Source: Nitrospirota bacterium
Lineage (GTDB): Bacteria; Nitrospirota; Nitrospiria; Nitrospirales; UBA8639
Assembly: GCA_027623995.1 (NCBI GenBank)
Contig: JAQBUF010000007.1
Location: forward strand, 1 to 64,000
DNA length: 64,000 bases
Reading direction: 5' to 3'
A program made the translations under genes and the position numbers. Below the pieces are notes generated by a model. That model saw only the letters and a list, made by a program, of their open reading frames with translations. It did not search any database and was not told where the DNA came from. Below are positions 5,327-57,976 of this stretch, one piece after another; positions within the stretch are counted from its first letter, which is position 1; each line of letters opens with the position of its first letter.

Positions 5327-6196
5327 ATGGCAACACTACATTTCCACATTCGGTTCTTTACTTCGGTTCTTTTTCTCGTCGCTATGACGACGAGCGCTAC
5401 CAATATATCTCTAGCAGCAGCCCCATCAAATGGCGACCCTTTGGAAAAGGTGAACCGACCAATCTATCAAGCGAACGACCTACTTGACCAATTTGTAGGA
5501 GAACCGGTTTCTCGAGTCTACATTGACTTGACACCAGATCCTATCCGATCAAGCGTTTCTAACTTTTTCGATAATGTAACCTACCTGAATGTGGTATTAA
5601 ATGATTTTTTGCAGGGAAAAGGGCAGCAGGGGCTTGAGGACTCAAGCCGCTTCCTGATTAACAGTACCTTTGGCGCCTTTGGGCTCTTTGACATCGCAAC
5701 CCCACTTGGCCTTGAAAAACACACCGAAGATTTTGGGCAAACACTTGCAGTGTGGGGCGTCGGGCAAGGAACCTATTTGGTTCTTCCCTTTCTGGGCCCA
5801 AATACGGCGCGAGATGTACCAGACCTTGGGGTCAGTGCGGTCACAAACATTCTATTTTATTTTAGTAATCCTGTTGCGGTTACAGTCGCGGTATTGGGGT
5901 TTATTGACAAACGATCCCGCTTTGATCAGGCCATTCAGTTCCGAAATGAGGTAGCCGTCGAGCCCTATCTCTTTACCCGAGAGGCCTACCTTCAGCACCG
6001 GAAATTTATTATTTATGACGGAGATCCACCACTGAGCGATGATGATTTATTCCTTGATGCTCCCCTTGTGGAACTTGAAGAAGATACTCCAGTGAACATT
6101 GAAACGGAACAGGCCCCAGAAAAGATAGAAATTGATCCGCAGGTGAAGAGCCCTGACCTCGCAGAGACTTCGACTCTCACGGTCTCTATTCGCTAG
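5327..6196 (+). CDS. mlaA: MlaA/VacJ-family protein without a lipobox
   Basis: A 289-residue protein with an N-terminal signal peptide (to about residue 31) and the conserved MlaA core: DPLEKVNRPIYQANDLLDQF, then NVVLNDFLQGK, RFLINSTFGAFGLFDIA and GVGQGTYLVLPFLGP. MlaA removes or transports phospholipids in the outer membrane with MlaC as partner. Classical MlaA is a lipoprotein with a cysteine after the signal peptide; here the mature N-terminus (AAPSNGDP) has no cysteine, so it is predicted to be non-lipidated. The C-terminal 50 residues form an acidic, Pro-rich tail beyond the family core. A ribosome-binding site AGAGGA precedes the ATG; 73 bp separate it from the MlaC-like gene. Confidence 0.88.
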   Translation: MATLHFHIRFFTSVLFLVAMTTSATNISLAAAPSNGDPLEKVNRPIYQANDLLDQFVGEPVSRVYIDLTPDPIRSSVSNFFDNVTYLNVVLNDFLQGKGQQGLEDSSRFLINSTFGAFGLFDIATPLGLEKHTEDFGQTLAVWGVGQGTYLVLPFLGPNTARDVPDLGVSAVTNILFYFSNPVAVTVAVLGFIDKRSRFDQAIQFRNEVAVEPYLFTREAYLQHRKFIIYDGDPPLSDDDLFLDAPLVELEEDTPVNIETEQAPEKIEIDPQVKSPDLAETSTLTVSIR

Positions 6197-6252: not shown

Positions 6253-8970
6253 TCAGGTCTCTTTCCACCAGCCTCTGGTCTCTAACTCTCCAATCAACGC
6301 TGGCAACACGACGAGGGCACAGAGTAACGCCAAGGTTAAAGTCAGCACCAAAAGAATTCCTAAACTCGCCATACCTTCGTGTCTAGAGAATCCCAAAGCT
6401 CCAAAAGAAGCCATGGTGGTTAAGGCACTAAAAAACACAGCTTTAGACGTACTGCTTTGCAGAACGTGAGCCATTGAAGTCCCTTCTCGTTTTCGAAGAA
6501 TCAGATAAATCCCAAAAGCAATCCCTAGGCCCAAGACTAAAGGCAACGCCACCACATTCGCGAGGTTGAGTGTCACACCAAGAACAAGAGAAGCAGCCAC
6601 GGTTAAGACCATCGTCATAAGAAGTGGAACCAGGACCAAGAGCACCTCTCCTATCCGTCGAAGCACAAGACACAGCAACACGAAGGAGGCAAGAATCGCA
6701 AACACTGTGGCCTGGATGCAGGCATCAATGATGGCCTGCCCTCCCTCGACAATTCCTACTGGTGGCCCAATGGCCCGTGGATCAATCTGCTGCACGCCTT
6801 TCGCAAATTGACGCAACTTCTCGTTGTCATTCCCGTTAAAGACGGGATACACCTCGACCCGAGCGCGACCATCCTTCGTGACATAGCGGTCCTTCAGTTG
6901 TTGTGGCAATTCTTCTAAGGTAAGAGGACTGGCGTTCATCAACATTCGTAATCGATCAAGCCAGTTGGGGAAATTTCCAATCAATCGTATTCGAAGCTCC
7001 TTCAAAGAATCAGGGGCCCCGTGGAACTTGTGTTCAAATTTATCTAACGATAACTCCAACGCTTTCATGCTGGACAGAAATACTGGGCTCCAAATCGTAT
7101 TGGTCTGATTAGACAACTTGGCTTTAAAATCTACGACAGCTTGCGCCTCTTCCCTATCGCCAGGAGGTGGGAGCGGATCAACAGGCATAAGAATCGGATC
7201 AAGCAGTAAAGCCATATCATCAATAATGCCTAATTTTTCTTCTTGATCCCCAGGTACGTACTTGGACAATGTGAGTACGCGATCAACGACATCCAATTGC
7301 TTCAACCGAGTCGCCAACTCATTAGCTTTTGTTAAATCTTGGGCCACAAGATGAATGACATACGGGGAGGTATCTGGATCTTCCAACAACTCCTGGAAGG
7401 TGGACACCCCTTCCGTAGTCGGATCTCGGAGATGAAGGGCATTGAAATCAAATCGAAGCGAAGGAAGAACAGCAACCGCACCCAAGGTGATGGGCACCAT
7501 CAAAATGAGAATCGGTCTTCGATAGCGAAGGACGAACGGAAGAGGCAGAGTCGCACCAGGTAGTGGGTACTCAACAGTCGAAGAAAGTTGAGATCTTCGA
7601 ATTGGCGAGATTGTTAAAAGCGCTGGAAACAACGTCACATTGGCGAGCAAGGCCAAGAACATTCCCCCTCCTGCGATCACACCTAGCTCTGCAAACCCTC
7701 GATAGGCCGTGGGGAAAAATGAGAAAAAACTGAGCGCGGCGGCAATAGCAGAGAGCGTCAGTGCCCCCCCTACCCCACTAGCGGCTTCCCGGAGCGCCAC
7801 ATCATGCACGCCTAACCGGTCAAAGGCTTCTCGATACCGCATGCCGAATTGAATACCAAAATCCACTCCTAAGCCAATGAACAAGACTGGAACGGTCGCG
7901 GAGATAAAATTCAACGACCCAATCGTGAATACAGCAAACGCCCCCGTCCAAATCAATCCCACAATCAAGGTCAGCAATATTGCCCCCACCAAACGAACCG
8001 AGCGAAGGCCGAAGAGCAAGATGACACAGACCAGAGAAATGGATAAGAGCCCAGCGAGACTGGCTCCCTGGGACAAGGTTTCGCGCTCCTCTGTCTCAAT
8101 GGGAATGGAGCCAGTCATTCGAACTCTGACGCCAAAATTATCTTTCAAGATCTCGCGTTGCTGTCGAATAAAACCAATCGGCCCCCCTGCCCCTTCCAAG
8201 GTCGAGTAATTCAGACGAGGTTTGGCCAAAAGAAATCGTCGTTTGGAATCGCCTTTTTTCGTGACGTCATCCAACATCGCTTCTTTCCAAGAAGAAGGAT
8301 TAGGCTTCCCAGCAACCTGCGCCTCAATCGCTTCACTCAATAAATCTAGAACTTTTGCCAACACCACTTGCTCATCAACGCTTGGAGTCTCATCTAAGGC
8401 CAGGGAGAGCATAGAAAAGAGGCCACGAAGACTAGGGTCATGCACTAAGGTACCTAAAAACGGTTCCCATTTACTCAGGCGTTCATCTAACTTCCAGAGC
8501 TCGTCAGGCGTGAGATACAGAAGACCATAGGTGTCAAAGAATTCACCGTGGGCAGGATCAAAGACGGATGAAAAAAGGTCAGGCTGCTTCTTGAGCGCAT
8601 CCGATAGTTGACGAACTGCATCTCGGGCCGCATCTGATGTCCCTTGATCAATGACGATCACAATTAAATTATCAAGTTCCGGAAACGCCGAGACAAAGTC
8701 CTGATCGAGCTGCCGAAAGGGAAGATCAGGATCCAACAAATTCATGGGATTGGTATCAAGAGTCAAATTGTTCACGGTATACACTAAAAGAAATCCCGTG
8801 ATGACCAACAAACCTATCACCACCCAAATCGCGAATCGACGACATACGTCCACAAGCTGGACCAAGGATTGTTGAAAGATCACCGCGATGTAATCGAGCA
8901 AATAAACCTTCACGACAGACTCTTTGTTCGACGTAGCATCAGTTTCAGAGGAAACGCCCTTTGACGACAA
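6253..8970 (-). CDS. hpnN: HpnN-type hopanoid-associated RND (MMPL) transporter
   Basis: A large inner-membrane protein of about 905 residues with the RND/MMPL layout: an N-terminal membrane helix, a first periplasmic domain (about 75-310), a block of membrane helices containing GLGVDFGIQFGMRYREAF, a second periplasmic domain (about 500-745) and a C-terminal helix block with GLGIAFGIYLILRKREG. The early motif TNPMNLLDPDLPFRQLD is typical of HpnN. HpnN moves hopanoids to the outer membrane. The gene converges on mlaA. The frame opens with TTG at 8970; a GTG at 8913 preceded by AAAGAG is an alternative start. It ends 57 bp from mlaA. Confidence 0.85.
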   Translation of the reverse strand: MSSKGVSSETDATSNKESVVKVYLLDYIAVIFQQSLVQLVDVCRRFAIWVVIGLLVITGFLLVYTVNNLTLDTNPMNLLDPDLPFRQLDQDFVSAFPELDNLIVIVIDQGTSDAARDAVRQLSDALKKQPDLFSSVFDPAHGEFFDTYGLLYLTPDELWKLDERLSKWEPFLGTLVHDPSLRGLFSMLSLALDETPSVDEQVVLAKVLDLLSEAIEAQVAGKPNPSSWKEAMLDDVTKKGDSKRRFLLAKPRLNYSTLEGAGGPIGFIRQQREILKDNFGVRVRMTGSIPIETEERETLSQGASLAGLLSISLVCVILLFGLRSVRLVGAILLTLIVGLIWTGAFAVFTIGSLNFISATVPVLFIGLGVDFGIQFGMRYREAFDRLGVHDVALREAASGVGGALTLSAIAAALSFFSFFPTAYRGFAELGVIAGGGMFLALLANVTLFPALLTISPIRRSQLSSTVEYPLPGATLPLPFVLRYRRPILILMVPITLGAVAVLPSLRFDFNALHLRDPTTEGVSTFQELLEDPDTSPYVIHLVAQDLTKANELATRLKQLDVVDRVLTLSKYVPGDQEEKLGIIDDMALLLDPILMPVDPLPPPGDREEAQAVVDFKAKLSNQTNTIWSPVFLSSMKALELSLDKFEHKFHGAPDSLKELRIRLIGNFPNWLDRLRMLMNASPLTLEELPQQLKDRYVTKDGRARVEVYPVFNGNDNEKLRQFAKGVQQIDPRAIGPPVGIVEGGQAIIDACIQATVFAILASFVLLCLVLRRIGEVLLVLVPLLMTMVLTVAASLVLGVTLNLANVVALPLVLGLGIAFGIYLILRKREGTSMAHVLQSSTSKAVFFSALTTMASFGALGFSRHEGMASLGILLVLTLTLALLCALVVLPALIGELETRGWWKET

Positions 8971-20670: not shown

Positions 20671-21726
20671 TTAGGCAGTTTGATTCATTTTCAATACAAT
20701 CTTTCCAAAAAAATTCCTAGCCAACATCAGTTCCTGCGCTGCCCGTGCCTCCTTTAGAGGGAATATTGAATCAACAATAGGCCGAAGCTTATCGGTCTCA
20801 ATGAGTCGAGTCGTTTCCAATAACTCATCACGAGTTCCCATGTACGACCCCATGATCGTCAGCTGCCGCGAATACAGATAGCGCGCATCAAATTGGCTGG
20901 CTCCACCAGTAGTCGCACCACAGGTCACCAGACGCCCACCACGCGAAAGTGATTTAAGACATTGGCCCCAGACTTCTTGACCAATATGTTCAATCACCAC
21001 ATCCACTCCCCGACCATGCGTAAAAGAAGCGACCCGGTCAGAAATGTCTTCGACCGAATGAATGATCACTTCATCGGCGCCTAGCAATTTGGCCTTTTCC
21101 ATCTTGCTACTATCCCCCACCGTACTGAACACTTGGGCGCCCAACAAATTGGCCATTTGAATCGCCATGCCTCCGACGCCGCTTCCGGCTCCCAACACTA
21201 ACACCGTTTCGCCTGGTTGAACATTCGCTAAGGTTTTCACCATATGCCAGGCCGTCACCGAAACCAAGGGAAAGGCTGCAGCCTGTTCAAAGGACAAGGT
21301 TTCTGGCAGCGGGAGAACATTGACCGCCGGCACATTCACAAATTCAGCATACCCTCCACTTCGTTGGGCACCAAGAATTTGATAATGCGCACAACGATTT
21401 TCCCTGCCGATAATACAATCATCACAATTCCCACAACTGATGCCTGGCATCACAAACACGGACTGGCCTAGACTCAGGTGCCCTGAATACCCGCTGCCAA
21501 AGGAAGCAATCACACCACTAATATCGCTGCCAGAAATATGTGGGAGCGAAATCGTGTAGTTGGGAATTCCCTGTCGAATCCAAATGTCGAGGTGGTTGAG
21601 CGCACAGGCTTTTACCCGAACAAGAATCTCGTCAGGGCCAACTTGAGGCAGGGGCACATCTTCGTATGTGAGTTTTTCCGGACCGCCATGCTCATAAAAA
21701 GTCACGGCCTTCATGGTCGAACCCAT
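20671..21726 (-). CDS. Zinc-binding MDR-family alcohol dehydrogenase/quinone oxidoreductase
   Basis: A 351-residue medium-chain dehydrogenase. The N-terminal domain begins MKAVTFYEHGGPEKLTYEDV and contains the structural-zinc loop CGNCDDCIIGRENRC (about 97-111); the nucleotide-binding Rossmann motif is VLGAGSGVGGMAIQMA (near 172). At the catalytic zinc position the family Cys is replaced by Asn (CALNHLDIW), as in quinone oxidoreductase-like members. Substrate unknown. It starts 12 bp after the stop of the PhzF-like gene and has AGGAGGA before the ATG, so the two form an operon. Confidence 0.85.
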   Translation of the reverse strand: MGSTMKAVTFYEHGGPEKLTYEDVPLPQVGPDEILVRVKACALNHLDIWIRQGIPNYTISLPHISGSDISGVIASFGSGYSGHLSLGQSVFVMPGISCGNCDDCIIGRENRCAHYQILGAQRSGGYAEFVNVPAVNVLPLPETLSFEQAAAFPLVSVTAWHMVKTLANVQPGETVLVLGAGSGVGGMAIQMANLLGAQVFSTVGDSSKMEKAKLLGADEVIIHSVEDISDRVASFTHGRGVDVVIEHIGQEVWGQCLKSLSRGGRLVTCGATTGGASQFDARYLYSRQLTIMGSYMGTRDELLETTRLIETDKLRPIVDSIFPLKEARAAQELMLARNFFGKIVLKMNQTA

Positions 21727-22780: not shown

Positions 22781-24019
22781 TTATGCCGTTAAAGGCAAGG
22801 CTTCATAACTAGAGGCTTGTGGATTCCGCACGTAATCTTCCACGAAGTTTTGTAGGGATCCGTTTCGGTAGAGTCGGGTGTTGGCAAATTTGGTATCGAT
22901 TTTGTGAAGCACCTTCACCTTGACTCCGGTTTTTTGGGTAAACTCATCCAAGGTCACGCCCATAATATCCATAAACGATCCACGCCCAGACTCCATCACG
23001 CTTTTGGGAATGTGAATGCGTTTTTCGTCGGTCAAACATTGTCGGATATCATCGAAAGTGAGAAGGACTGTACAGTCAGAATCTCCACCAAGCATGGTAT
23101 TGGGAACGTGGAGATATCGCGCTCGCTTCTTTCGATACATGTTCAAAATTTTATACACACTTCCCGCCATGACGACCGTATCTTTTTTCTCTAACTCCAA
23201 CGCATCAAACGCACTGACGATTCGTTTGCGATTGAGAAAGGCCGTCACATAGGCTTCGGTATGAATGGTCGTCAAATTGGGAAGCCCCGCATCAAAAATC
23301 CGTTCAGCCTCAACAGGAAGATATTTTCTCCCTTGTCGCATGAGATCGGCCGTGTCCTCTTTTAATCCACGGACAGGGGTCAGGCATCCCATCCATAACA
23401 CACATTCCTGATTGATCTTCGAAATCGTCTCCGCATCCTTCGACATGGTATCTTGATCGAACGCATAAAAATTAGCCGAGGATACCGCTGGGCCATCTAA
23501 CACTTTCATGAGATGCCGGACCGAAGGCGCATGTGGCATCAATTTCTCTCGGTACTGACTCAGGGTAATGACGGACAATTCAAAGTTAATCCGACCTGGG
23601 TATTGCGCCACAAGTTGATGGATTTTTGGAACATGGACAAAACCAACGGTAAAAAATTGAATGCTTTTATCGGTGTATTTCAAAAAATCCTCAACCCACT
23701 CCATACCCTTGGGATGCAGAAATAAATCCGTCCATTCCATATATTCATTGCCACCCAAACACCAAAACTGCATGGGCTTGGTTGGTTTGGCATTGATGTA
23801 ATTGAGGATAAACTCCCAATCATCTTGCGTAGTTTTTGGGGGATCTTGAGTCTCCCGGTAGGAATGGTCCAACTCATAACAGAAATCGCATTCGACCGGA
23901 CATTTCTTCCCTAGGCTTAGCGGAATTTTTCCCGCGTCCATCTCACGCTTCAGGACTTCTCGATACCCTTTGCCCTGAAGCACAAGAGTTGGTTCTAGAA
24001 CTGGAAGTTCGCGTCCCAT
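22781..24019 (-). CDS. Radical SAM protein with DUF512-like C-terminal domain
   Basis: A 412-residue radical S-adenosylmethionine protein. The cluster-binding motif is KKCPVECDFCYE near residue 40 (CxxxCxxC). The middle part is a plausible partial TIM barrel. The C-terminal third (KDTVVMAGSVYKILNMY, HVPNTMLGGDSDCTVLLTFD, ESGRGSFMDIMGVTLDEF) resembles the DUF512 domain found after a radical SAM domain in NifB/MoaA-related oxidoreductases. The substrate is unknown. Two B12-binding radical SAM genes lie 0.5 kb upstream on the same strand, separated by a small divergent gene. Confidence 0.75.
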   Translation of the reverse strand: MGRELPVLEPTLVLQGKGYREVLKREMDAGKIPLSLGKKCPVECDFCYELDHSYRETQDPPKTTQDDWEFILNYINAKPTKPMQFWCLGGNEYMEWTDLFLHPKGMEWVEDFLKYTDKSIQFFTVGFVHVPKIHQLVAQYPGRINFELSVITLSQYREKLMPHAPSVRHLMKVLDGPAVSSANFYAFDQDTMSKDAETISKINQECVLWMGCLTPVRGLKEDTADLMRQGRKYLPVEAERIFDAGLPNLTTIHTEAYVTAFLNRKRIVSAFDALELEKKDTVVMAGSVYKILNMYRKKRARYLHVPNTMLGGDSDCTVLLTFDDIRQCLTDEKRIHIPKSVMESGRGSFMDIMGVTLDEFTQKTGVKVKVLHKIDTKFANTRLYRNGSLQNFVEDYVRNPQASSYEALPLTA

Positions 24020-24140
24020 ATCACGGTATTCCTATCTATGATAAAAAAACTAATTTACTCTCAATTACAAAACCGACTCGTTGACACTCCCAAGAACGGT
24101 TTGCCAGACTGGGAAACATTACCCACAAAGGCCGACTTCG

Positions 24141-24440
24141 ATGAATTCAACACCAACATCTCCTGAAAGCGAAAATACTGAAGGTCCGACTCAGGAACCC
24201 ATCGCACAAGCATTGACGTTATTTGACCTCACGCCACCCTTCTCTTCTACAACTCTCTATCAGCGCTATCAAGACATGCTCTTAACCTGGCATCCTCATC
24301 GATATGCCAACATGACCAATAACCCATCCAAGTATATGAAAATGTACAAAAAAGGGGAGGCCATGACGAAGGAAGTCCGGGCTGCGTATCAAGTATTGAA
24401 AGAATGGTCAGAGAATAGTATTCCTCATCCCACAGACTGA
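24141..24440 (+). CDS. J-domain-like protein lacking HPD
   Basis: A 99-residue protein. After a Ser/Pro-rich N-terminus, residues about 25-90 resemble a DnaJ J domain: LTLFDLTPPFSSTTLYQRYQ, DMLLTWHPHRYANM and VRAAYQVLKEW. The HPD signature needed to stimulate DnaK ATPase is HPH here, so it may be a degenerate J domain used only for binding. Start at the ATG 24141; the ribosome-binding site is weak. It is transcribed divergently from the 22.8-kb radical SAM gene and converges on the B12 radical SAM gene, inside a radical-SAM neighbourhood. Confidence 0.6.
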   Translation: MNSTPTSPESENTEGPTQEPIAQALTLFDLTPPFSSTTLYQRYQDMLLTWHPHRYANMTNNPSKYMKMYKKGEAMTKEVRAAYQVLKEWSENSIPHPTD

Positions 24441-24527
24441 TGTAGTATTACTCAGATCCCTGGACACCACCCCATTCAAATCATCCAACAGCCGATATAC
24501 TTGAGAGGAAATCTGTAGCCAGTCCCG

Positions 24528-26495
24528 CTATCGGGCTGAGTGACTCACCACCCTGGACATCCCTGGTTCCCCATCTTTTCCACCTTCAGGATCCGCTTTG
24601 GCCACAGGCCAAGTAATCAAACCAGCGACCGTATCTGACTTGGCTTGGGAAGGGCTATGCTGAGTGGCATAAATCTGAGGAAGTTTACTCGTGCCAAATT
24701 TTGAGATGTAGAGAAAGATTTGCTCTCGGGCATTTATACGCACCGCCCAAGGTTCAAAGTCATTCTGATAAAAATCTTCGCACATCTGCATGGCATCCAA
24801 ACAGCTCACCCCACCTGGCTCATTGAGCGTGTAATAATAATCAAGCGGCATATCGTATTCATCTTGCTTATGGATCGTAATGCCAAACTTATCCGGATTT
24901 CTGACCATGGGGGTATGCCGATAGGCCACAAAGTAAAACAGCTCCACGGAATGAATACTCGACTTATTCTTGAGCAAGAACTGCCGAGTATCTTCAGCTT
25001 CTTCTTTGGTTTCACCAGGGAATCCGTAAAATGCCATGACATGATTCCAGATGCCGACATTAGCAGCTTCTCTCAAATTATTCTCAATAACACTTTTTTT
25101 GGCATGTTTATCCATGAGTTCGAGTACACGCTCATTTGCGGACTCCATGCCATAATAAAGAGTCTTGCACCCAGACTTCGCTGCCAATTTCCAGATTTCA
25201 GGATCTTGGAGGGTTTCCTCAAAACGAATCAACGTCGTCCACTTAATATCGACTTTTTCGTCAATCAGTAATTGCGAAACCTTTTTAAAGAGGGCTGGCG
25301 GATAGGATTCATCGGCAAAGAGGAAATGGTCAGCATGATATTTTTTCTGTAACGCAGCGACCTCGCGTACGACATCGCTGGCGGGCTTCCCACGGTATTG
25401 ATCAAAGTACCCTTGGCCATGGTCACAAAACGTACATTTTCCCCAGTAGCATCCCCGAGTCGCGAGGTAGGGCAAAATTCGCGTGGGCACAAAATAGGAA
25501 TCGAGCGGAAACCCTTCAAAGTCAGGCAAAGGAAGACTGGTGGTTTTTTCGGTATAAATTTCAGGATTGATCCTGACATGCCCCTGCTCTCTATACATAA
25601 GGTTCGGAACGGCAGGCCACTCACGATCACCGACTAAGGCTTCCAGAAGCCACAGGAGTGCATGCTCACCTTCATACATGATCGCCGTATCAAACACCTT
25701 CGTGAAAAAAGGTTCCTGCTTGGCCAGGTCTTCTTGTAGCCGGGTAATGACATTTCCGCCTACCGTCACATGAATATCGGGGTAAGCCTCCTTGATCATT
25801 TTTCCAAAGGTCAGCCCCGCGATGAGCTGCATTTGTGTGCCAATCGAAATACCTACGACCTCTGGGCGTTCTTTGGCAATTGATGGCAGCACTAACTGCT
25901 GACACACATCCCGATAGACATTGACCTGAGGATCGTCTAAGCACTCTAACACTTCACTGGAGACACCAGGACGATAGCCTAAATTACTTTCCATGGGATA
26001 GTAGACAAGCGACGCGGGATAATACGCCGCCGAGATATATCGCATGACATCACGAAACACGTTCAATGCCCATTCGAGTTTATTCGCATTATAAAAATCT
26101 TCACTTCGATTGATGCGCTTGGCTTCCTCGGCATTCGTCGCTAAATCCATCACATCAAACGACAAAGCTTCTTCTAGGCAGGACTTTTGGCTCACTTCCT
26201 TTTCTGACAATCCTCCTTGAGCCTCTTTCGCCTTGAGGCCTCGGAGTTGCTGCGCCATGCGAGCATTCACCCAGATCAAAAACAGGTCACTAAAGAACAG
26301 CTCATACATTTCGATATTGATGTCTCGCTGAATCACCTCATGGCCATTTTCACGAAGCACCGCCGTCAGACTGGGCAACGCAAGATAAGGCGCCGTCGGC
26401 ACCCATTCCGGAGGGAAGAGCAGCATGGTCTTTAATTTCCGACCACTCTTTGGCTTCTCGCCTTTGGTATCAATTTGTATGATGGAAGAGGACAT
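24528..26495 (-). CDS. B12-binding-domain radical SAM protein, paralogue 1
   Basis: A 655-residue class B-type radical SAM protein. The N-terminal third (to about 300) has a cobalamin-binding Rossmann-like layout (LLFPPEWVPTAPYLALPSL near 28, ERPEVVGISIGTQMQL near 210, HVTVGGNVITRL near 240). The radical SAM domain carries RGCYWGKCTFCDHG near residue 350 and SGCKTLYYGMESANERVLEL further on. Family members perform difficult methylations or ring contractions, including lipid methylation; no substrate can be assigned. It starts 5 bp after the stop of a close paralogue, so the two are co-transcribed and probably arose by tandem duplication. Confidence 0.85.
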   Translation of the reverse strand: MSSSIIQIDTKGEKPKSGRKLKTMLLFPPEWVPTAPYLALPSLTAVLRENGHEVIQRDINIEMYELFFSDLFLIWVNARMAQQLRGLKAKEAQGGLSEKEVSQKSCLEEALSFDVMDLATNAEEAKRINRSEDFYNANKLEWALNVFRDVMRYISAAYYPASLVYYPMESNLGYRPGVSSEVLECLDDPQVNVYRDVCQQLVLPSIAKERPEVVGISIGTQMQLIAGLTFGKMIKEAYPDIHVTVGGNVITRLQEDLAKQEPFFTKVFDTAIMYEGEHALLWLLEALVGDREWPAVPNLMYREQGHVRINPEIYTEKTTSLPLPDFEGFPLDSYFVPTRILPYLATRGCYWGKCTFCDHGQGYFDQYRGKPASDVVREVAALQKKYHADHFLFADESYPPALFKKVSQLLIDEKVDIKWTTLIRFEETLQDPEIWKLAAKSGCKTLYYGMESANERVLELMDKHAKKSVIENNLREAANVGIWNHVMAFYGFPGETKEEAEDTRQFLLKNKSSIHSVELFYFVAYRHTPMVRNPDKFGITIHKQDEYDMPLDYYYTLNEPGGVSCLDAMQMCEDFYQNDFEPWAVRINAREQIFLYISKFGTSKLPQIYATQHSPSQAKSDTVAGLITWPVAKADPEGGKDGEPGMSRVVSHSAR

Positions 26496-26500
26496 GATGT

Positions 26501-28396
26501 TTAGACCTTTGCCAATTCGTGGCCCTTTTCATCTGGAGTAATTCGAAATTGAAGGGCAGGAAGTTTATTCGTACCAAAATGGGCGACATAGAGGAACACA
26601 TACTCACGGATGAAGATTTTCAAATCCCACCCGGCATAGTGATTCTGCTCAAACTCTTCAAACACGCGCTCGGCATCTTCAATGCCTAACCCATCTTTCA
26701 CAGTAAAATAATAATCCAGCGCCAAGTCCCATTCAGGATTGTCATAATAGGTCACGCCCCATTTCTCTGCATTTTGAGCCACAGGGGTGTGCTTACTCAA
26801 ATCAAACGTGCCAAACCCAATGGAATGAACGTGGTCTTTATTGTCTTCCAAAAATTGCATGGAAAACTTCGCATCTTCGTACCGTTCCCCTGGAAATCCG
26901 AAGAAACCCATGACGTGGTTCCAAACTCCATGCTTGGAGGACAATTCCATACTGCGTTGAATCACATCCGTGGTCGTGGCCTTGTCCATGAGTTTCAGCA
27001 CTCGTTCACTGCCAGACTCATATCCAAAATGAAGATATTTACAGCCGGAATCTTCAGCATCCTGCCAGACTTCATCATCTAGCAAACTTTTCTCGAAGCG
27101 AATATGCGTGGTCCAAGCAATGCCCATTTGTTCTTCTTTTAACGCACGCGTGAGCTTACGAAACAAGGCTGGAGGATACGACTCATCAGTAAAGTGAAAC
27201 ATGTAGGCCTGATGTTTGTCGCGCAGGAATTTCACTTCTTCAATCACTTCTTGAATTTTCTTGGTCCGATATCCAGCTGTGTACCCTTCTCCATGGTCAC
27301 AAAACTCGCACCGTCCCCAATAGCAACCCCGTGTGGCCAGATAGGGGAGAATCGGTTCTGGTACAAAATATTTTTCAAGAGGGAGTCCGTCAAAATCCGG
27401 AGGCGGTAAATCCGACATACTCTCGGATGAGGTGACGGGAGACGTATGAATTCCCGATTCGTCCTTCCAAAGAAGATTTGGGATTTCATTAAAATCACGA
27501 TCTGTTCCAACAGCCTCAATCAACTGCAGAAATGCGGTTTCACCTTCATAAACAATCGCGGTATCAAAGAGCTCAAATAACTTGGGAGTATTAGGCAACA
27601 CATCCCGTAGCCGGGTGACCGTGTTTCCACCAATCGTGATATGAATGTTGGGAAAGGCCTCTTTGATCATGGCACAGAAGGTCATGGTCGAAAACAACTG
27701 TTGGCGAAGAACAATAGAGATCCCGATGATATCAGGATTTTCTTCAATGATGGCCGGTTTCAGAATATGCTCGAAGACATCCCGGTACACATTCACTTGA
27801 GTGTCATCAACAGCCGCGAGCACTTCCGAAGACATGAAAATTTTATACGAAAGATCGGTTTCCATGGGAGGCATGCAAATGCGGGCTGGTGCGTAGACGA
27901 GGGAGATCGTCGTCGTCACTTCCCTGAATATATTGATGGCCCATTCAAGCTTTTCAGCCTCATAAAACTCTGGGGATCGAACGATCGCCTTAGCTTTCTC
28001 CGCTTGGTCGCTCAGATCAGCAATGCGTGATCTCGTACATTCACACAACGCCAGTTGCTGCTCGGTTTCGACATCAGTCAAGCCACGGTCCCGACTAATT
28101 CGCTTAAGGCGCTCCAATTGTTGAGGAACACGTTTGAGCACGCGCTTGAGAAAATCAGCACTAAAATACCAATCATACATTTCCAAATTGACGTCTTTTT
28201 GTACCACATCGTGGCCTGCTCGCCGCAGAAAAGCCGTTAATGTGGGAAGACTGAGGTAGGGTTCAGAGGGGTACCAATCAGGGGGAAATACCAGCATGAC
28301 CTTTTTTTTGGGGCCAGCACCGGCATTCGATTCTTTTCGACGGAGCTGAATCAGTTCCGAACTCAGTAAACCACCTTTATTATAATCAATCCTCAT
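26501..28396 (-). CDS. B12-binding-domain radical SAM protein, paralogue 2
   Basis: A 631-residue protein with the same architecture as the downstream gene: MLVFPPDWYPSEPYLSLPTL, a cobalamin-domain segment NIHITIGGNTVTRL near 250, and RGCYWGRCEFCDHGEGY near residue 357, then SGCKYLHFGYESGSERVLKL and a C-terminal region of about 150 residues conserved with its neighbour (DLALDYYFTVKDG versus MPLDYYYTLNEPG). It is the first gene of the pair; 326 bp of non-coding DNA separate it from a divergent hypothetical gene. The two likely act on related substrates or at successive steps. Confidence 0.85.
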   Translation of the reverse strand: MRIDYNKGGLLSSELIQLRRKESNAGAGPKKKVMLVFPPDWYPSEPYLSLPTLTAFLRRAGHDVVQKDVNLEMYDWYFSADFLKRVLKRVPQQLERLKRISRDRGLTDVETEQQLALCECTRSRIADLSDQAEKAKAIVRSPEFYEAEKLEWAINIFREVTTTISLVYAPARICMPPMETDLSYKIFMSSEVLAAVDDTQVNVYRDVFEHILKPAIIEENPDIIGISIVLRQQLFSTMTFCAMIKEAFPNIHITIGGNTVTRLRDVLPNTPKLFELFDTAIVYEGETAFLQLIEAVGTDRDFNEIPNLLWKDESGIHTSPVTSSESMSDLPPPDFDGLPLEKYFVPEPILPYLATRGCYWGRCEFCDHGEGYTAGYRTKKIQEVIEEVKFLRDKHQAYMFHFTDESYPPALFRKLTRALKEEQMGIAWTTHIRFEKSLLDDEVWQDAEDSGCKYLHFGYESGSERVLKLMDKATTTDVIQRSMELSSKHGVWNHVMGFFGFPGERYEDAKFSMQFLEDNKDHVHSIGFGTFDLSKHTPVAQNAEKWGVTYYDNPEWDLALDYYFTVKDGLGIEDAERVFEEFEQNHYAGWDLKIFIREYVFLYVAHFGTNKLPALQFRITPDEKGHELAKV

Positions 28397-28722
28397 GATA
28401 ATCCTTTATCAAGACAGCTCTATAGGAAAGAAATTCAAGATTCCCTCTAGTGAGGCTGTACAAGCCCTTGAAATCTCAAATGGTTAATTAATCCGTGTGC
28501 CATTCTATGCCTCAGGAAAAAGGTTGGTCAAGGTTGCTAAGCCTGTGAAAAATAAGGAATAACGCCATTGACAGGTGCAAAAGGGTGAGTTAGGGTGAAG
28601 TTTCGTATTTGAAAACGAGTTCTCAGGATAAACCCCGCCTGAATTTAACAAGACACCACCAAAATTAAAGAAACTCAAGTCAACAAGGTATTGACCCGAA
28701 ACATGTGCCTAAGGAGCGAAGG
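28397..28722. other. Intergenic region, 326 bp, between divergent genes
   Basis: Holds the divergent promoters of the B12 radical SAM pair and the hypothetical gene at 28723. No cobalamin-riboswitch core, hairpin or coding frame was recognised. Confidence 0.4.
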
Positions 28723-29229
28723 ATGACGAAATCTGCGGATACCCCTGAACGAAATTGGCTAGCCTATCTCATGGATTCACTGGTGCATTCTGGTACTATG
28801 CCAAGCTGGGAAGCCACGGAGTACCTCACTTCAAACCTTATTGGGGAAGCTCCAAATACTCAGCTTCATGAATCCAAATCACCTTACGAGGCCATTCAAC
28901 AATTTCTTCACCGTGTGTATGGACCCATCGTCGAAGCTGCTTCTCGCTCGGTCTACCTCCCCAAAGAATCCATGATTCACATGTTTACGGATATCAGCGT
29001 CATGGGAAACTCCACGGTCCTGATCGTCTACTTTCCTGGGGAGAATAAACCTCACCAACTTCTGCTCCTTGATGGCGTCAAAGCTTGGGACTTGATGTTC
29101 CAAGATACCCAAGCCTTTAATGCTTGGGCCCAAGAACGACATATCTGGATCACTGACGCCCTCAAAGCCGTTAGCATCGACACGATGTTTCAGGAACCCG
29201 CTCAAGAAGCCATGGTCCTAAGCTCCTAA
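28723..29229 (+). CDS. Hypothetical protein, 168 residues
   Basis: An unrecognised soluble protein. Start at 28723, seven bases after AAGGAG. It begins MTKSADTPERNWLAYLMDSL and has a mixed alpha/beta look, with a beta segment STVLIVYFPGENKPHQLLLL near residue 100. No signal peptide, membrane segment or cysteine pair is seen. It is divergent from the B12 radical SAM genes and has no close same-strand neighbour. Normal codon use and a good ribosome-binding site support it as real. Confidence 0.6.
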   Translation: MTKSADTPERNWLAYLMDSLVHSGTMPSWEATEYLTSNLIGEAPNTQLHESKSPYEAIQQFLHRVYGPIVEAASRSVYLPKESMIHMFTDISVMGNSTVLIVYFPGENKPHQLLLLDGVKAWDLMFQDTQAFNAWAQERHIWITDALKAVSIDTMFQEPAQEAMVLSS

Positions 29230-29677: not shown

Positions 29678-30463
29678 TCACCACACCACTATTCTCTTCC
29701 AAACCCATAAATCTTCAAGGGATTCGGCTTTAGCTTTAAAATCCATAAAGTCTTTGTCTATAGCGTTTTTATGAATTAAGACCTTTTCCTTACATTCGAA
29801 TGATCCCGACCAATACATTCCAATTGACACATACTTTGGATTTACCTTTCGAAACCATCTATTAAAAAGCACAAGTACTCCACAAATAGGATCTAAAGCT
29901 TCTATCCATGTATGGGAGAGAGAGTTATTCCCGAAACTGAGTACTGGAGAAATTCGAAGCTTACTATAGGAATGAAGTGGGGCATGTTTAAACATAAACT
30001 CAATACCTCCATCAGTTAATTCACATAACCAATGATGATGAGAATATCCACAATACCGAAGCCTCTCAACGCCTAACATGCTTTCAATTATCCTACTTGG
30101 TGTTTCAATGTACCCGGCTTTTCCTACCCTCATTAATTCCTGACAGACCCAAATTGGGTCTCGGACATCTTCCAAAGTGTGCGAACAAAAGACAAAATCA
30201 AATTTTTTGTCTTCAAATGGCCATTTATCTCTTGCGCAGATATCTTGTTTGATCCAAGTTTCCTCAGAATAATAAGGTGTTGGCTAAATATTATTTAGCA
30301 TTTGGGGCCTTTTTTGCCCGAAATCCCAGGGCATAAAATCTAAAACAAAATTGGCCCGACTTAAAGGCTGATCTCCTCCTCCAACATCTAACACTAAATC
30401 ATTAGGTTTTATATATTCTGATAGCTCTGATTTAGTCCCTGGCCGAACAAATTCCTGACTCAT
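29678..30463 (-). pseudogene. SAM-dependent methyltransferase (type 11) split by an in-frame amber codon
   Basis: The ATG at 30463 (RBS GGAGGG) starts MSQEFVRPGTKSELSEYI and reaches the SAM-binding motif I NDLVLDVGGGDQPLSRANFV. A TAG at 30284-30286 interrupts the same frame, after which sequence continues without any shift: PTPYYSEETWIKQDICARDK, FDFVFCSHTLEDVRDPIWV (motif post-II) and the rest of a typical class I methyltransferase to 29678. A single nonsense mutation thus separates the SAM-binding part from the catalytic part. The gene is much more AT-rich than flanking genes, a sign of transfer; such methyltransferases are common in surface-polysaccharide clusters. Not clearly expressed as one protein unless the amber codon is read through. 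Confidence 0.8.
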
Positions 30464-30655: not shown

Positions 30656-33600
30656 CTAGTGTAAATTCGGTGATAGCCACCGTTCGACTGTCGCAAGATC
30701 CATCTGCTTTCGAGCGGCGTAGTCCTTCACTTGATCATGATCAATTTTCCCCACACCAAAATATTTGGCTTGAGGGTGGGCAAAATAGAGCCCACTTACC
30801 GAGGCCGCCGGAAACATGGCGAACGATTCGGTGAGTTGAATGCCTGTTGATTGTTCAGCATTGAGCAGCGTAAACAAGAGGCCTTTTTCGGTATGATCCG
30901 GGCATGCAGGATAGCCTGGGGCTGGACGGATTCCCCGGTAGCGTTCACGAATTAACTCTTCATTTGAAAAGTCTTCTTTGTGACCATAGCCCCATTCATT
31001 TCGCGCTTCGCGATGGAGCCATTCGGCAAAGGCCTCGGCTAAACGGTCGGCCAGCGCTTTCGCCATGATCGAATTATAATCATCATGGTCTTTTTCGAAT
31101 CGCTCACAGATCGCTTCGATACCTATCCCTGCCGTCACCGCAAACCCACCGATATAATCGGCGACCCCCGTTGATTTGGGCGCGACGAAATCTGCGAGGG
31201 CAAAATTCGCATCGCCTTTGGGTTTTTCCAACTGCTGGCGAAGCGTATGAAAGGTCGTGACCACTGATGATCGGGACTCATCTTGATAGACTTCAATATC
31301 ATCTTCCACGCTATTGGCTGGGAAAAATCCATACACGGCTCTAGCTGTGAGTAATTTCTTCTCGATAATTTCTTTGAGTAACCCCTGAGCATCGTCAAAG
31401 AGTTCTTGGGCCTTACTCCCAACTGTTGGATCGTCAAAAATCTTGGGGTATCGACCTTTCAGTTCCCATGTATGGAAAAATGGTGTCCAATCGATCAGCG
31501 GCACCAAATCTTCTAACGGCTGCTTTTCAATCACTCGCGTTCCAACAAAATTCGGTTTGGCAATATCCGAGGCTTGCCAATCAATGGCCATTCTCCGCTT
31601 TCGGGATTCCTTAAGCGGCAATAACTTCTTCGTCGTTTTCTTGGTCTCGTAGGCCTCACGAGCTGACGCTTGTTGCTGCCGAACCTTTTCGACAAACCCG
31701 GGCTTTTCTTCTTCGCTTAACAATTGTCGTACGACATTCACGGCTAACGAGGCATCCAACACATGCACGACTGGCTCATTGTAGCCAGGCGCAATTTTGA
31801 CTGCAGTATGTGCTTTGCTCGTTGTCGCCCCTCCGATGAGCAACGGAATATTAAACCCCTCCCGAGCCATTTCCTTAGCGTTGTGCACCATTTCATCCAA
31901 AGAAGGAGTAATGAGCCCACTCAGCCCGATCATATCGACATTTTTTTCTTTGGCGATTTTCAAAATCTTATCACAGGGCACCATGACCCCCAGGTCAATA
32001 ATTTCATAATTGTTGCAACCCAGCACGACACCGACGATGTTCTTCCCAATATCATGAACATCGCCCTTGACCGTGGCCATCAGCACCCTCCCTTGGGCAC
32101 CTCTTCCCGAAGATTCTTTTTCTTTATCCATAAATGGCAACAAAAATGCGACGGCTTTTTTCATCACTCGCGCACTCTTGACCACTTGAGGCAAAAACAT
32201 TTTCCCCGCGCCGAATAATTCGCCGACGATATTCATACCGTCCATGAGCGGGCCTTCAATCACTTTAATGGGTTTGTCAAATTTCTGCCGTGCTTCTTCC
32301 GTATCTTCGTCGATATATTCCACAATGCCTTTGACCAACGCATGAGAAAGGCGTTCTTCCACCGACCCTTTTCTCCAAGCATCGTCCTTGACCACCACTT
32401 TGCCTTGCTGCTTGACGGTTTCAGCAAACGTGACAAGCCGTTCGGTCGCATCAGGCCTTCGGTTCAACAACACATCTTCAACAAGCTCAAGGAGATCTTT
32501 GGGAATTTCTTCGTACACGCCCAACTGGCCTGCATTGACGATAGCCATATCCAGACCGGCCTTGATGGCATGAAACAAAAAGGCCGTATGCATGGCCTCA
32601 CGTACCCCATTGTTCCCACGAAACGAAAAGGAAATATTGCTCAAGCCACCGCTCACTTTACAATGCGGCAACGTCGCTTTGATTTGCCGGGTCGCCTCCA
32701 AAAAGTTCATGGCATAATTGTTGTGCTCGTCAATCCCAGTGGCTACGGTCAAAATATTTGGATCAAAGATAATATCCTGCGGAGGAAAGCCTACCTCCTT
32801 GGTTAAGATGTTGTAGGCTCTTGTACAAATCCCGACCTTACGTTCGGTTGTATCTGCCTGACCTTCTTCATCGAAGGCCATGACCACAACTGCAGCGCCA
32901 TAGCGTTTAATAATGTGCGCTTGTTCTTTAAACTTCTCCTCGCCCTCTTTGAGACTAATGGAATTCACCACACCTTTACCTTGAACACATTGCAGTCCCG
33001 CCTCAATGACCGACCACTTCGAACTATCGATCATAATGGGAACTCGGCAGATATCAGGCTCGGAAGCAATCAGGTGGAGAAAGTTCACCATCGCCTTCTC
33101 AGAATCCAGCATGCCTTCGTCCATATTGACGTCAATGATTTGTGCGCCCCCGTCTACTTGTTGCCGAGCAACCGACAGGGCTTCTTCGAATTGACCATTG
33201 AGAATCAACTTGGCGAATTTTGGTGAGCCGGTCACATTGGTTCGCTCCCCGATGTTGAGAAAATTCAACTCTGGTCGAATCACCAATGGTTCCAGGCCAC
33301 TCAGCCTGGTGAGATGATCGGTCGGAATCACCCTATGTGGTTTTATGTCACTCACGGCCTTTGCAATAGCATGAATATGTTCCGGGGTACTTCCGCAACA
33401 TCCACCCACAATATTTACCCACCCATTGCTGGCAAAATCGCGCAAATCTTCGCCCATTCGATCTGGGGTTTCATCAAACCCCCCAAAGGCGTTCGGCAAT
33501 CCCGCGTTGGGGTAACAACTAATATAGGTCGGCGCGAGCTTTGAGAGTTCCTGAATATAGGGCCGCATTTGTTTCGCACCCAAAGCACAATTAATGCCGA

Positions 33601-34348
33601 CGCTAAATGGATGAGCATCGGCAATGGAATTCCAAAAGGCTTCGATCGTTTGCCCTGACAGGGTTCGCCCGCTTTGATCGGTAATCGTGACGGAAGCCAT
33701 GACGAGGATCTCCACACCATGCTCTTGACGATATTGGTCAATCGCAAAAAAGGCAGCCTTGGAATTCAGCGTATCGAAGATCGTTTCAACCAGCAGGAGG
33801 TCAACCCCACCATCGATGAGACCACGGACTTGCTCATAATAGGCTTCACGCAACTGTTCAAATGTGACGGCACGGAATGCGGGATCATTCACATCTGGCG
33901 ACATGCAGGCCGTGCGATTGGTCGGCCCGAGGGCACCAGCCACAAATTTGGGGCGAGAGGGATCTTGAGCCATCACAGCCTCGACGGCTTTTCTTGCGGC
34001 CGTCGCTCCGGCGACATTGAGTTCATAGGCCAGGGATTCCATCTTATAGTCAGCCATGGAAATGGAATTGGAATTGAACGTATTCGTTTCAATGATGTCC
34101 GCCCCGGCCTCCAAATATTCTTGATGAATCGAGGCAATCAAGTCGGGTTGGGTGAGCGCCAACAAATCATTATTCCCTTTGACGTCACAGGGATGATTGG
34201 CGAACCGGGTTCCTCGAAAATCGGCTTCTTCTAATTTATGCCGCTGGATCATCGTGCCCATGGCACCATCCAATATTACAATTCGTTGTTGAATCAGTTC
34301 TTGAAGCCGATCAGTTGAATCTTTCACGCAATCCTCTTTCGCTAACAT
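30656..34348 (-). CDS. metH: Cobalamin-dependent methionine synthase
   Basis: A full-length MetH (about 1230 residues) that transfers the methyl group of methyltetrahydrofolate to homocysteine via methylcobalamin. Domains in order: homocysteine-binding barrel with its zinc cysteines (GINCALGA and [11 protein letters not shown], to about 330), pterin-binding domain (about 355-640, [15 protein letters not shown]), cap and B12-binding domain with the lower-ligand motif [19 protein letters not shown] (near 760), and the reactivation domain (about 920-1215, with [12 protein letters not shown]). The open frame begins with ATG 34348, but a GTG at 34327 preceded by AGAGGA is an attractive alternative. 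No cobalamin or SAM riboswitch was recognised upstream. Confidence 0.96.
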
Positions 34349-50168: not shown

Positions 50169-50451
50169 AACCGCGCGAGTATATCCTGTGCTAGCCACCC
50201 ATTCAACTCAATTGAGGATTCCAGAGAGATATATCTTCCATGAGCCAAGAAACGAAGGGCGTCCGCCAGAAGTTGCTGTCATTTTCCACCAAGGAGTATA
50301 GTGAAATATGCTACGGCAGGCTGAAAAATTGGAGTAATTTTTAAATTTCTTCGCTGCCCTCTGAGCGTTTCACAATTTTCTTGGTCATCACTGCCAACCC
50401 AAGTCGCCACCCATGAAGTCATGGTGTTACCATGCCCAAAGGAGGCTCCTT

Positions 50452-51552
50452 ATGAAAAAATCATCAATCTTCATCAGTCTTCTCTTAACTCTTTTTGTTC
50501 TTCATAGCTCTGACAGTCTCGCCCGGCGAACCCATCTGACTTCCGAACAAAAGAGTCAACTCGAAAAAGTACAAACTGTGCTCGTCACTGTCTTGACATT
50601 GACTGAAAAAGGGGCCTCCGATAGCGCACGCCTGCAAGAAATCGTGAATCAAAGTCTTGTGAATGTTGGGTACAGTGTGGTGGCTGATCGAACGCAACCT
50701 CACGATGTGGAATTTAAAGTCAAATGTGAAGAACGGAAGACCTGGGCGGGAACAACCTCGGAGGGAGGGGACGCGGAACTCACTGATGCTCCGTCCAGAC
50801 TCTGGCAAGGGCCGGCCTGTTTATTCACATACCTCCTTGGTGGAAAGAACCTGGGATGGTACAAAGAAATTCGAACCTCGTTTGAAGATCCCCTCGCGAA
50901 GGCCAAAGCGGCTGGGGCCAAAGATTCTGGCACCTTTGCCTTGGAACAATTAACCACACAAGTATTCAACTATGATTTCCCTGTGTTGATCACTGCGGAA
51001 TGGGGCCAACCCCAACGACTCCTCAAACTCTTAGATGCCCCCACTACATCCAATCTTCGGAAACTTAAGATTCTTTCCTCGTTGAGTCATTTGGGAGCCA
51101 CTGAGGCCCTTCCACAATTGACAGAGATCATGAAGCAAAAAGATTTGGCTCAAGAAGCCATTGTGGCCCTCAAAGGCGTTGGTGAGGACTCCATACCCAT
51201 GCTCATTGATTTATTTCAGAACTCTCCACAGCCAGAAATTCAAGCGGCCGCCGCCCAAGCTCTAGGAGATGTTGCAGGATCGAGTGGAAACCCATCGACC
51301 ATTCCTCCACTGCTGGCGTACCTAAAGACCGCCTTAAAAACCATGAAAACCTCAGCGGACATTAATTTCCCAGTCTTAACTGAGGTCGTCTGGTCCCTTG
51401 GTAAGTTGCGTGATGAGAACTCGCTTGAACCGATGGCAGAGTTAAATAGCAAAGTATGGCTCATTTATGACAAATCACAAGCCATGGCTGATCTTCGCGA
51501 AGCTGCAAATTGGACATATAAGCAATTGGATCTTGATGGTCATGTCAGCTAA
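50452..51552 (+). CDS. Exported HEAT-repeat protein, copy A
   Basis: A 366-residue protein with a signal peptide (MKKSSIFISLLLTLFVLHSS, cleavage near SLA), an N-terminal domain (about 30-190) with two cysteines (KCEERKTWAGTTSEGGDAEL and GPACLFTYLLGG), and HEAT-like repeats (about 185-320; IVALKGVGEDSIPMLIDLF, AAAQALGDVAG). GGAGG precedes the ATG 50452. A paralogue follows 146 bp downstream, and a decayed third copy lies at 10.3-10.9 kb. HEAT repeats usually bind proteins, so it may be a periplasmic scaffold. It lies upstream of the LPP20/LpoB-type lipoprotein genes. Confidence 0.75.
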   Translation: MKKSSIFISLLLTLFVLHSSDSLARRTHLTSEQKSQLEKVQTVLVTVLTLTEKGASDSARLQEIVNQSLVNVGYSVVADRTQPHDVEFKVKCEERKTWAGTTSEGGDAELTDAPSRLWQGPACLFTYLLGGKNLGWYKEIRTSFEDPLAKAKAAGAKDSGTFALEQLTTQVFNYDFPVLITAEWGQPQRLLKLLDAPTTSNLRKLKILSSLSHLGATEALPQLTEIMKQKDLAQEAIVALKGVGEDSIPMLIDLFQNSPQPEIQAAAAQALGDVAGSSGNPSTIPPLLAYLKTALKTMKTSADINFPVLTEVVWSLGKLRDENSLEPMAELNSKVWLIYDKSQAMADLREAANWTYKQLDLDGHVS

Positions 51553-51698
51553 TATTCAAACCTGTGCGCACAGAGTAAACGCTGATGACACATTTGGTTA
51601 TTGGCCGCCCATGATCGCGACCAATGGCTAAGGCCACAGGCCTTTTCATTTATTAATCGCCATCCTCGTAATTGACCCAAGCCCGCTTAGGAGGCCTC

Positions 51699-52811
51699 AT
51701 GATGACGAAGAATACAGCAGGAATGTTGGGGTGCATCTGTCTAGTCCTATTCGGACTGGCCACAGACAGTTCGGCTCGACGATCCCACATCAACCCAGAG
51801 CAACGAACCAAACTTGAAAAAATTCAAACGGTGTATCTGAATGTATTGGCACTCACGGAAGACGGGAAAATTCCCTCTGATGACTTTGTCACGCTCATTC
51901 AATCAAGAATGGAAGAACTCGGCTACACGGTCGTAACAGACCGGAAGGCTGCCCACGATGTGCAATTTCTGGTTAAATGCGAAGAACAGAAACGCTGGAA
52001 AGGGACAACCCGTTCAGGAGGCGATGCCGAACTCGCTGATTCCCCCTCACGCCTCTGGAGGGGGCCCGCCTGTTTATTTAATTATCGAGTCGAGGGAGAA
52101 GACTTAGGGTGGTATAAAGAAACCCGTACGGATTTTGAGGATGCGTATGCGGCTGCCCAAACGGCCAAGGCAAAAAAATCTGGAAAATATGCCATGAGCC
52201 AACTCAAACTCAAACTGGAAAATTTTGACTTTCCCGTCATGGCCGCCACGGAATGGGGACACACTGCTCGGCTCGCCAGGTTACTAGAAAATCCAAAAAC
52301 GTCGAAGGTCAGAAAGCTTCGAATTCTTTCCACCCTGTCAAAAGTTCAATCCAAAGAAGCCATTCCTCATCTCATTACATTGGCTCAGGATGAAAATGCC
52401 GAATACGCCGAAGCCGCCATCATCGCCCTTGCCGGAACAGGCAGTTCGGCCACTCCGATTTTAACCGACATCTTCGTCACTTCAAAAATATCTCGCATTC
52501 AGGCCGCCGCAGCCAAAGGGCTTGGACTCATTGGGGCGCATAGCGGGGATCCAGCCATTACTCCACCTCTTCTCGATTACTTAAATCGCAACCTCGAGAA
52601 CATGGATGAATCCTCAGACATCGATTTCCCCGTTCTCACCGAAGTCGTCTGGTCCATTAGCAAACTGCGTAACGATAAATCTGTAGTGCCGATTGAACAG
52701 CTCAACATCAAAATATGGTTAATTCGAGACAACTCGAAAGAAATGAAAGAACTCAGAGACGCCGCTAATGTTGCCACAAAAATGATCGACCTGGATTACC
52801 AAATTATGTGA
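51699..52811 (+). CDS. Exported HEAT-repeat protein, copy B
   Basis: A 370-residue paralogue of the preceding gene with the same layout: signal peptide, Cys-containing domain (FLVKCEEQKRWKGTTRSGGD, GPACLFNYRVEGEDLG), the block NFDFPVMAATEWGHTARLAR and HEAT repeats (IIALAGTGSSATPILTDIF, AAAKGLGLIG) ending FPVLTEVVWSISKLRND. AGGAGG precedes tandem ATGs at 51699/51702. An intrinsic terminator follows at 52836. The two copies clearly arose by duplication and have diverged substantially. Confidence 0.75.
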   Translation: MMTKNTAGMLGCICLVLFGLATDSSARRSHINPEQRTKLEKIQTVYLNVLALTEDGKIPSDDFVTLIQSRMEELGYTVVTDRKAAHDVQFLVKCEEQKRWKGTTRSGGDAELADSPSRLWRGPACLFNYRVEGEDLGWYKETRTDFEDAYAAAQTAKAKKSGKYAMSQLKLKLENFDFPVMAATEWGHTARLARLLENPKTSKVRKLRILSTLSKVQSKEAIPHLITLAQDENAEYAEAAIIALAGTGSSATPILTDIFVTSKISRIQAAAAKGLGLIGAHSGDPAITPPLLDYLNRNLENMDESSDIDFPVLTEVVWSISKLRNDKSVVPIEQLNIKIWLIRDNSKEMKELRDAANVATKMIDLDYQIM

Positions 52812-57760: not shown

Positions 57761-57976
57761 GGCTTTTTGTTTCCATATCCCGCTTCTGACGTCTGAGGGT
57801 CAGGTGACTGAGATCAAACGGGAATCCGCTCTGTAATGATGAGGAGTAGAGCATCTTCGGTTGGACGTTCTAATCCTATCAACCACCTTCATGGGACTCC
57901 TGACATTAAAGCCTGCCATGAAAAGTGACGACATGACTGAAGAAGTGGCTCTAACCTATTGAATAACCAGAAGGTT

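Follow-up and report, generated by a model that had tools for sequence, protein, structure and literature searches.

Cobalamin-dependent radical SAM enzymes occur in two structural classes. In class-1, the B12-binding domain is located N-terminal to the radical SAM domain, as in OxsB, the PhpK family (TIGR04479) and the C-methyltransferases of RiPP biosynthesis (TIGR03975). HpnR, HpnJ and BchE likewise have a B12-binding radical SAM architecture. OxsB is not a methylase. Class-2 comprises Mmp10, the arginine C-methyltransferase of methyl-coenzyme M reductase (MCR), in which the cobalamin domain is C-terminal to the radical SAM domain, and the DUF512 proteins. The latter bind cobalamin, and four of them form methylcobalamin from SAM (PMC11659888). 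A 2025 review treats them as the second class and names their reactions as an open question (PMC13331322).

The locus discussed here lies in a stretch of 64,000 nucleotides from a bacterium of the Nitrospirota, referred to as the window (contig JAQBUF010000007.1, positions 1 to 64,000). Three of its products are likely cobalamin enzymes, and both structural classes are represented among them; no paper describing such a block, or linking Nitrospira to these enzymes, was found. The genes are listed in Table 1. A preliminary description of the window had reported tandem B12-binding radical SAM paralogues of 655 and 631 residues, another radical SAM protein, DUF512-like at its C-terminus, about 0.5 kb downstream, and a small J-like protein with HPH in place of HPD, adding that no described system of this composition was known. 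All of these statements hold. The reading favoured for the block, with a probability of roughly 0.45, is that the five genes A, B, J, C and PhzF work together as a unit peculiar to the Nitrospirales, modifying a single, non-essential metabolite.

Table 1. Genes of the block and its neighbours in the window.
Gene	Product	Position	Strand	Remarks
A	B12-binding radical SAM protein, 631 aa	26501-28396	-	First of the tandem; Pfam B12-binding and Radical_SAM
B	B12-binding radical SAM protein, 655 aa	24528-26495	-	Paralogue of A; Pfam
C	Radical SAM protein, 412 aa; its DUF512-like domain at the C-terminus is predicted to bind cobalamin	22781-24019	-	
J	HPD-less J-fold protein, ~99 aa	24141-24440	+	Antiparallel, between B and C
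PhzF	PhzF-family isomerase, 310 aa	21739-22671	-	PF02567, 231 bits; TIGR00654, 258 bits
Divergent gene	168 aa	28723-29229	+	Not conserved; no convincing family match
ADH	Zinc-type alcohol dehydrogenase	20671-21726	-	Pfam and synteny; loose neighbour

A and B are separated by 5 bp (26496-26500) and are 48% identical over 609 aa (E 3e-196). In both, a Pfam B12-binding domain precedes the Radical_SAM domain, the two domains score above cut-off, and the cluster cysteines of the CX4CX2C motif are invariant in the family alignments. Among solved proteins, OxsB is the closest to A (E 1.6e-11) and shares this cysteine spacing. The earlier suggestion that A and B be examined for membership in a family of known function led to no such family: many curated NCBIfam models of cobalamin radical SAM enzymes were matched, none of them above cut-off. 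The best scores were obtained with PhpK (126-144 bits) and TIGR03975 (117-121 bits), far below the cut-offs of 600 and 282, and neither precursor peptide nor phosphinate genes were recognised at the locus. The HpnR, HpnJ and BchE models together gave 45-75 bits against cut-offs of 481-650 (HpnR 45-54 against 650, HpnJ 65-73 against 578), and the block contains no hopanoid or chlorophyll genes. HpnP, the hopanoid C-2 methylase, was not among the models matched. A and B are thus predicted to be class-1 cobalamin-dependent radical SAM enzymes outside the curated families. A third B12 radical SAM paralogue, D, is about 35% identical and lies outside the window (L105 748-2532; genome G000, contig C100). 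Almost all sampled genomes of the Nitrospirales have D, even those that lack A and B. D is followed by genes resembling those for a membrane protein, a TPR protein, an NHL-repeat protein, a multihaem cytochrome and a globin, so that a link of this neighbourhood to electron transport is possible.

C begins 508 bp beyond B. Its cluster motif is CX3CX2C (C40-C44-C47), found N-terminal to the DUF512 domain in 78 of 78 C relatives among the best 80 of 142 matches. The DUF512 match itself covers residues 288-371 and, with 23.1 bits (E 5e-5), falls slightly short of the Pfam cut-off of 25; 14 of 34 relatives match DUF512 at E<=0.01. A sequence search of the PDB with C returned nothing, even with a 34-sequence input. 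The AlphaFold2 model built from the 34 relatives is of moderate confidence (pLDDT 69). Among PDB entries it matched 9CG2 best (E 2.3e-7, TM 0.34-0.39), a DUF512 protein from Pyrococcus furiosus, with the RiPP maturase SkfB ranking behind it. Like csDUF512 (9CG1) and pfDUF512 (9CG2), C combines an N-terminal CX3CX2C radical SAM domain with a DUF512-like C-terminal domain. Cys39, Cys43 and Cys46 of pfDUF512 correspond to C40, C44 and C47 of C, and a PDZ domain is absent from both. C differs from the solved proteins in its sub-threshold Pfam score, in having no detectable sequence match to them, and in sharing a conserved block with enzymes of class-1. As in Mmp10, the presumed cobalamin domain of C follows the radical SAM domain; no NCBIfam methanogenesis-marker model was reported for C, and MCR does not occur in these bacteria. 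Because DUF512 proteins bind cobalamin and the modelled fold of C best matches a solved member, C is the third likely cobalamin enzyme of the block, tentatively placed in the Mmp10/DUF512 class.

The open reading frame of J was called at 24081-24440 (+), opening at TTG 24081, and its relatives point to ATG 24141 as the likely start, giving 99 aa. The Pfam DnaJ match is sub-threshold (18.3 bits), and a Foldseek search with the AlphaFold2 model returned mainly J domains as top matches, none at E<=0.001. The predicted helical J fold is shared with the co-chaperones DnaJ and HscB. In contrast to these, HPD occurs in none of 70 J relatives (the window protein has HPH), and the family has conserved motifs of its own, W-x-P-x-R and TNNP-x-KYM. 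Thus, J represents a distinct family and is probably not an Hsp70 activator. The last gene of the block passes the TIGR00654 cut-off of 76 bits and, judged by sequence, belongs to the PhzF family of small-molecule isomerases.

Elsewhere in the window, an apparently broken SAM-dependent methyltransferase gene was noticed by eye at 29678-30460, as short minus-strand frames. The neighbouring genes at 50413-51552 and 51672-52811 each encode a 379-aa protein with HEAT repeats and are probable tandem duplicates, and a DUF4301 protein at 57959-59563 gave a near full-length match (694 bits). A scan for promoters and terminators gave no more signal than shuffled sequences.

Gene order was compared at C loci from a scan of one genome per species, using the best 80 of 142 matches. 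Among these, 56 loci were testable, having at least 4.6 kb upstream of C, and 50 of the 56 show the order A-B-J(reversed)-C. Five of the six exceptions carry the most divergent C (60-65% identical) and come from the soil group f2 and one groundwater relative; in the sixth (L191), B is truncated and A was not detected. Whether the genes stay together in relatives had been posed as a test in the preliminary description, and in most relatives they do, namely in these 50 loci; in one divergent family they are scattered yet kept. Nitrospira moscoviensis (NZ_CP011801, L160) has the full block, and Candidatus Nitrospira defluvii (FP929003, L189) is among the C loci listed. The divergent gene upstream of A, once thought to complete the block, was found in only nine of the 56 testable loci among the best 80 of 142 matches and had no convincing Pfam or NCBIfam match; it was ruled out as the fifth member. 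This place is taken by PhzF, beyond the coordinates originally given for the block, which directly follows C at 64 of 72 loci among the best 80 of 142 matches. Downstream of PhzF, ADH follows often, not always. Genes for MoaB, a 2Fe-2S ferredoxin and a 147-aa protein (p147), lying beyond PhzF and ADH in the opposite orientation, are syntenic as well. They are probably unrelated to the block, and they are left out of it as they remain intact in a genome in which the block has been lost (G041). A 420-aa protein (c16) adjoining A in f2 and some members of family f3 was also rejected as a partner, because almost all f1 genomes carry it away from the block and most f3 genomes lack it.

Almost all nitrifiers of the Nitrospira type keep the block. 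Among 296 genomes sampled from the phylum, C was confined to the order Nitrospirales (58 genomes), as were A and B, save for a weaker match (E 9e-82) in a genome of another class (G150). The best 80 of 142 C matches all lie in records titled Nitrospira, Nitrospirales, Nitrospirae or close to these, except for two titled Nitrospinota. The latter (L121 and L134, with C 92% and 82% identical to that of the window and the full block in L134) look like mislabelled Nitrospirales genomes.

Losses of the block concern its members jointly. A and B are absent from five Nitrospirales genomes (G041, G253, G293, G309 and G314), and these also lack C and an orthologous J, having at most ordinary J-domain matches. 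PhzF is absent from four of them. In the fifth, G041, it is a frameshifted relic (L236 8844-9646) in two frames with about 40 residues gone, beside which ADH, MoaB, ferredoxin and p147 are intact; the contig ends about 270 bp beyond PhzF. G151 and G154 have A and lack J. A Fisher test of J against A/B over 98 genomes gave P = 3e-7, uncorrected for relatedness, and the independent losses of the block may number only about three. Many genomes are fragmented, so that single absences may be assembly gaps; G299, whose contig breaks off just past J, was accordingly rejected as a loss. In several f2 genomes, A/B, C and PhzF are scattered yet kept, and in one of them (G037) they and J are all retained on four different contigs. 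Joint loss in five genomes, together with retention despite scattering in f2, makes the linkage look functional, beyond preserved position.

C has also been lost by itself. It is absent from all 24 AmoA-positive (comammox) genomes tested, which belong to genus g12. In the comammox-type regions examined, the gap is flanked by intact A, B, PhzF and other neighbours, and J too is intact except in G151. The loci with a block that is complete apart from C are L213-L226, L085, L086, L089 and L090. In a tree of A and B, the C-less, AmoA-negative g12 genomes examined sit among AmoA-positive ones and are therefore probably comammox genomes with incomplete assemblies; the AmoA-positive G209 branches apart. 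C is also missing from G016, G019 and G022, which lack AmoA, so its loss is not established as exclusive to comammox, and from G154, G178 and G235, which were outside the AmoA test. Its loss alone in several lineages indicates that C is dispensable for A, B, J and PhzF.

As the genes of the block are retained or lost together, they probably make or alter a single molecule, and the disappearance of the PhzF-family isomerase along with the others favours a small-molecule pathway. In the proposed mechanism, SAM would methylate bound cob(I)alamin, and a second SAM would yield a 5'-deoxyadenosyl radical that abstracts hydrogen from the substrate; methylcobalamin would then pass its methyl group to the resulting substrate radical. 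A and B may act successively on the substrate, with PhzF contributing an isomerisation or epimerisation and C an optional step lost by comammox lineages. The HPD-less J could serve as a protein adaptor and not as a normal Hsp70 co-chaperone. Use of cobalamin by the organism is plausible, as a gene named MetH from its sequence is present in the window (30656-34348) and MetH is a cobalamin enzyme. Several observations weigh against this proposal: OxsB, the closest solved relative of A, is a non-methylase, and the fold of J would suit a protein client more than a metabolite. The separate losses of C, the moderate confidence of its model and the small number of independent block losses are further points against it. 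As a tentative extension, the pathway may be unique to nitrite-oxidising Nitrospirales, with class-1 and class-2 enzymes leading to a methylated product. The class-2 step would have been lost in comammox lineages, whose end product would differ.

An alternative that is considered unlikely, though the fold of J suits it, is that A, B and C C-methylate residues of an energy-metabolism protein, such as nitrite oxidoreductase (NXR) or a cytochrome, while J binds the client. Two cobalamin radical SAM enzymes acting on one protein have a precedent in Mmp10 and MgmA, which both modify MCR (PMC11659888, PMC11796369). Confinement of the block to a nitrite-oxidising order is in line with this, as is family f4 of that order, which lacks A, B and C as well as NxrA. 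However, G253 and G314, at least two of the five genomes without the block, keep NxrA. The block is therefore not needed for NXR, which argues against an essential part in nitrite oxidation and rules out NXR maturation as an obligate role. The loss of PhzF along with the block also speaks against a protein substrate. A/B was met near an NxrA-like gene only once, at a distance of about 4 kb in an f2 genome (L084). In that locus (L084 1-1155 and 3729-9437), genes for an MBL-fold protein and a 618-aa protein are found between A/B and the NxrA-like gene.

It is rather improbable that the genes are neighbours without a shared function, their order being old synteny in a slowly rearranging region. 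In favour of this reading, the probably unrelated MoaB, ferredoxin and p147 genes are syntenic too, C can be lost while the rest stays intact, and J runs antiparallel to the other members. It is countered by the five genomes that lost the block jointly, in one of which (G041, the one region read) the remaining syntenic genes are intact, and by the co-retention after dispersal in f2.

Tailoring of a lipid by methylation of a fatty acid or hopanoid is slightly less probable still: 11-methyl-hexadecanoic acid, a conceivable product, is reported from N. moscoviensis, which has the full block, and from other Nitrospira (PMC5516240), and the TIGR04072 lipid model matches A/B partially, but its 61-67 bits are far under the cut-off of 360, the HpnR and HpnJ scores lead to rejection of hopanoid methylation, the block holds no acyl-chain genes, and no lipid precedent was met for C or PhzF. 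An MlaA lipoprotein gene (5327-6196) and, next to it on the other strand, an MMPL transporter gene (6253-8970) lie about 13-23 kb away; they are likely the source, and the sole ground, of the hopanoid link drawn in the preliminary description, which is not supported.

A near-universal set of predicted B12-dependent enzymes bears on the cobalamin demand of Nitrospira. These bacteria are widespread nitrite oxidisers and hard to study genetically. Since comammox genomes lack C, comparing them with the others is a natural route to the product of C. Furthermore, the fixation of a DUF512-type enzyme in a five-gene block gives the question of the DUF512 reaction (PMC13331322) a genetic context and candidate partners.
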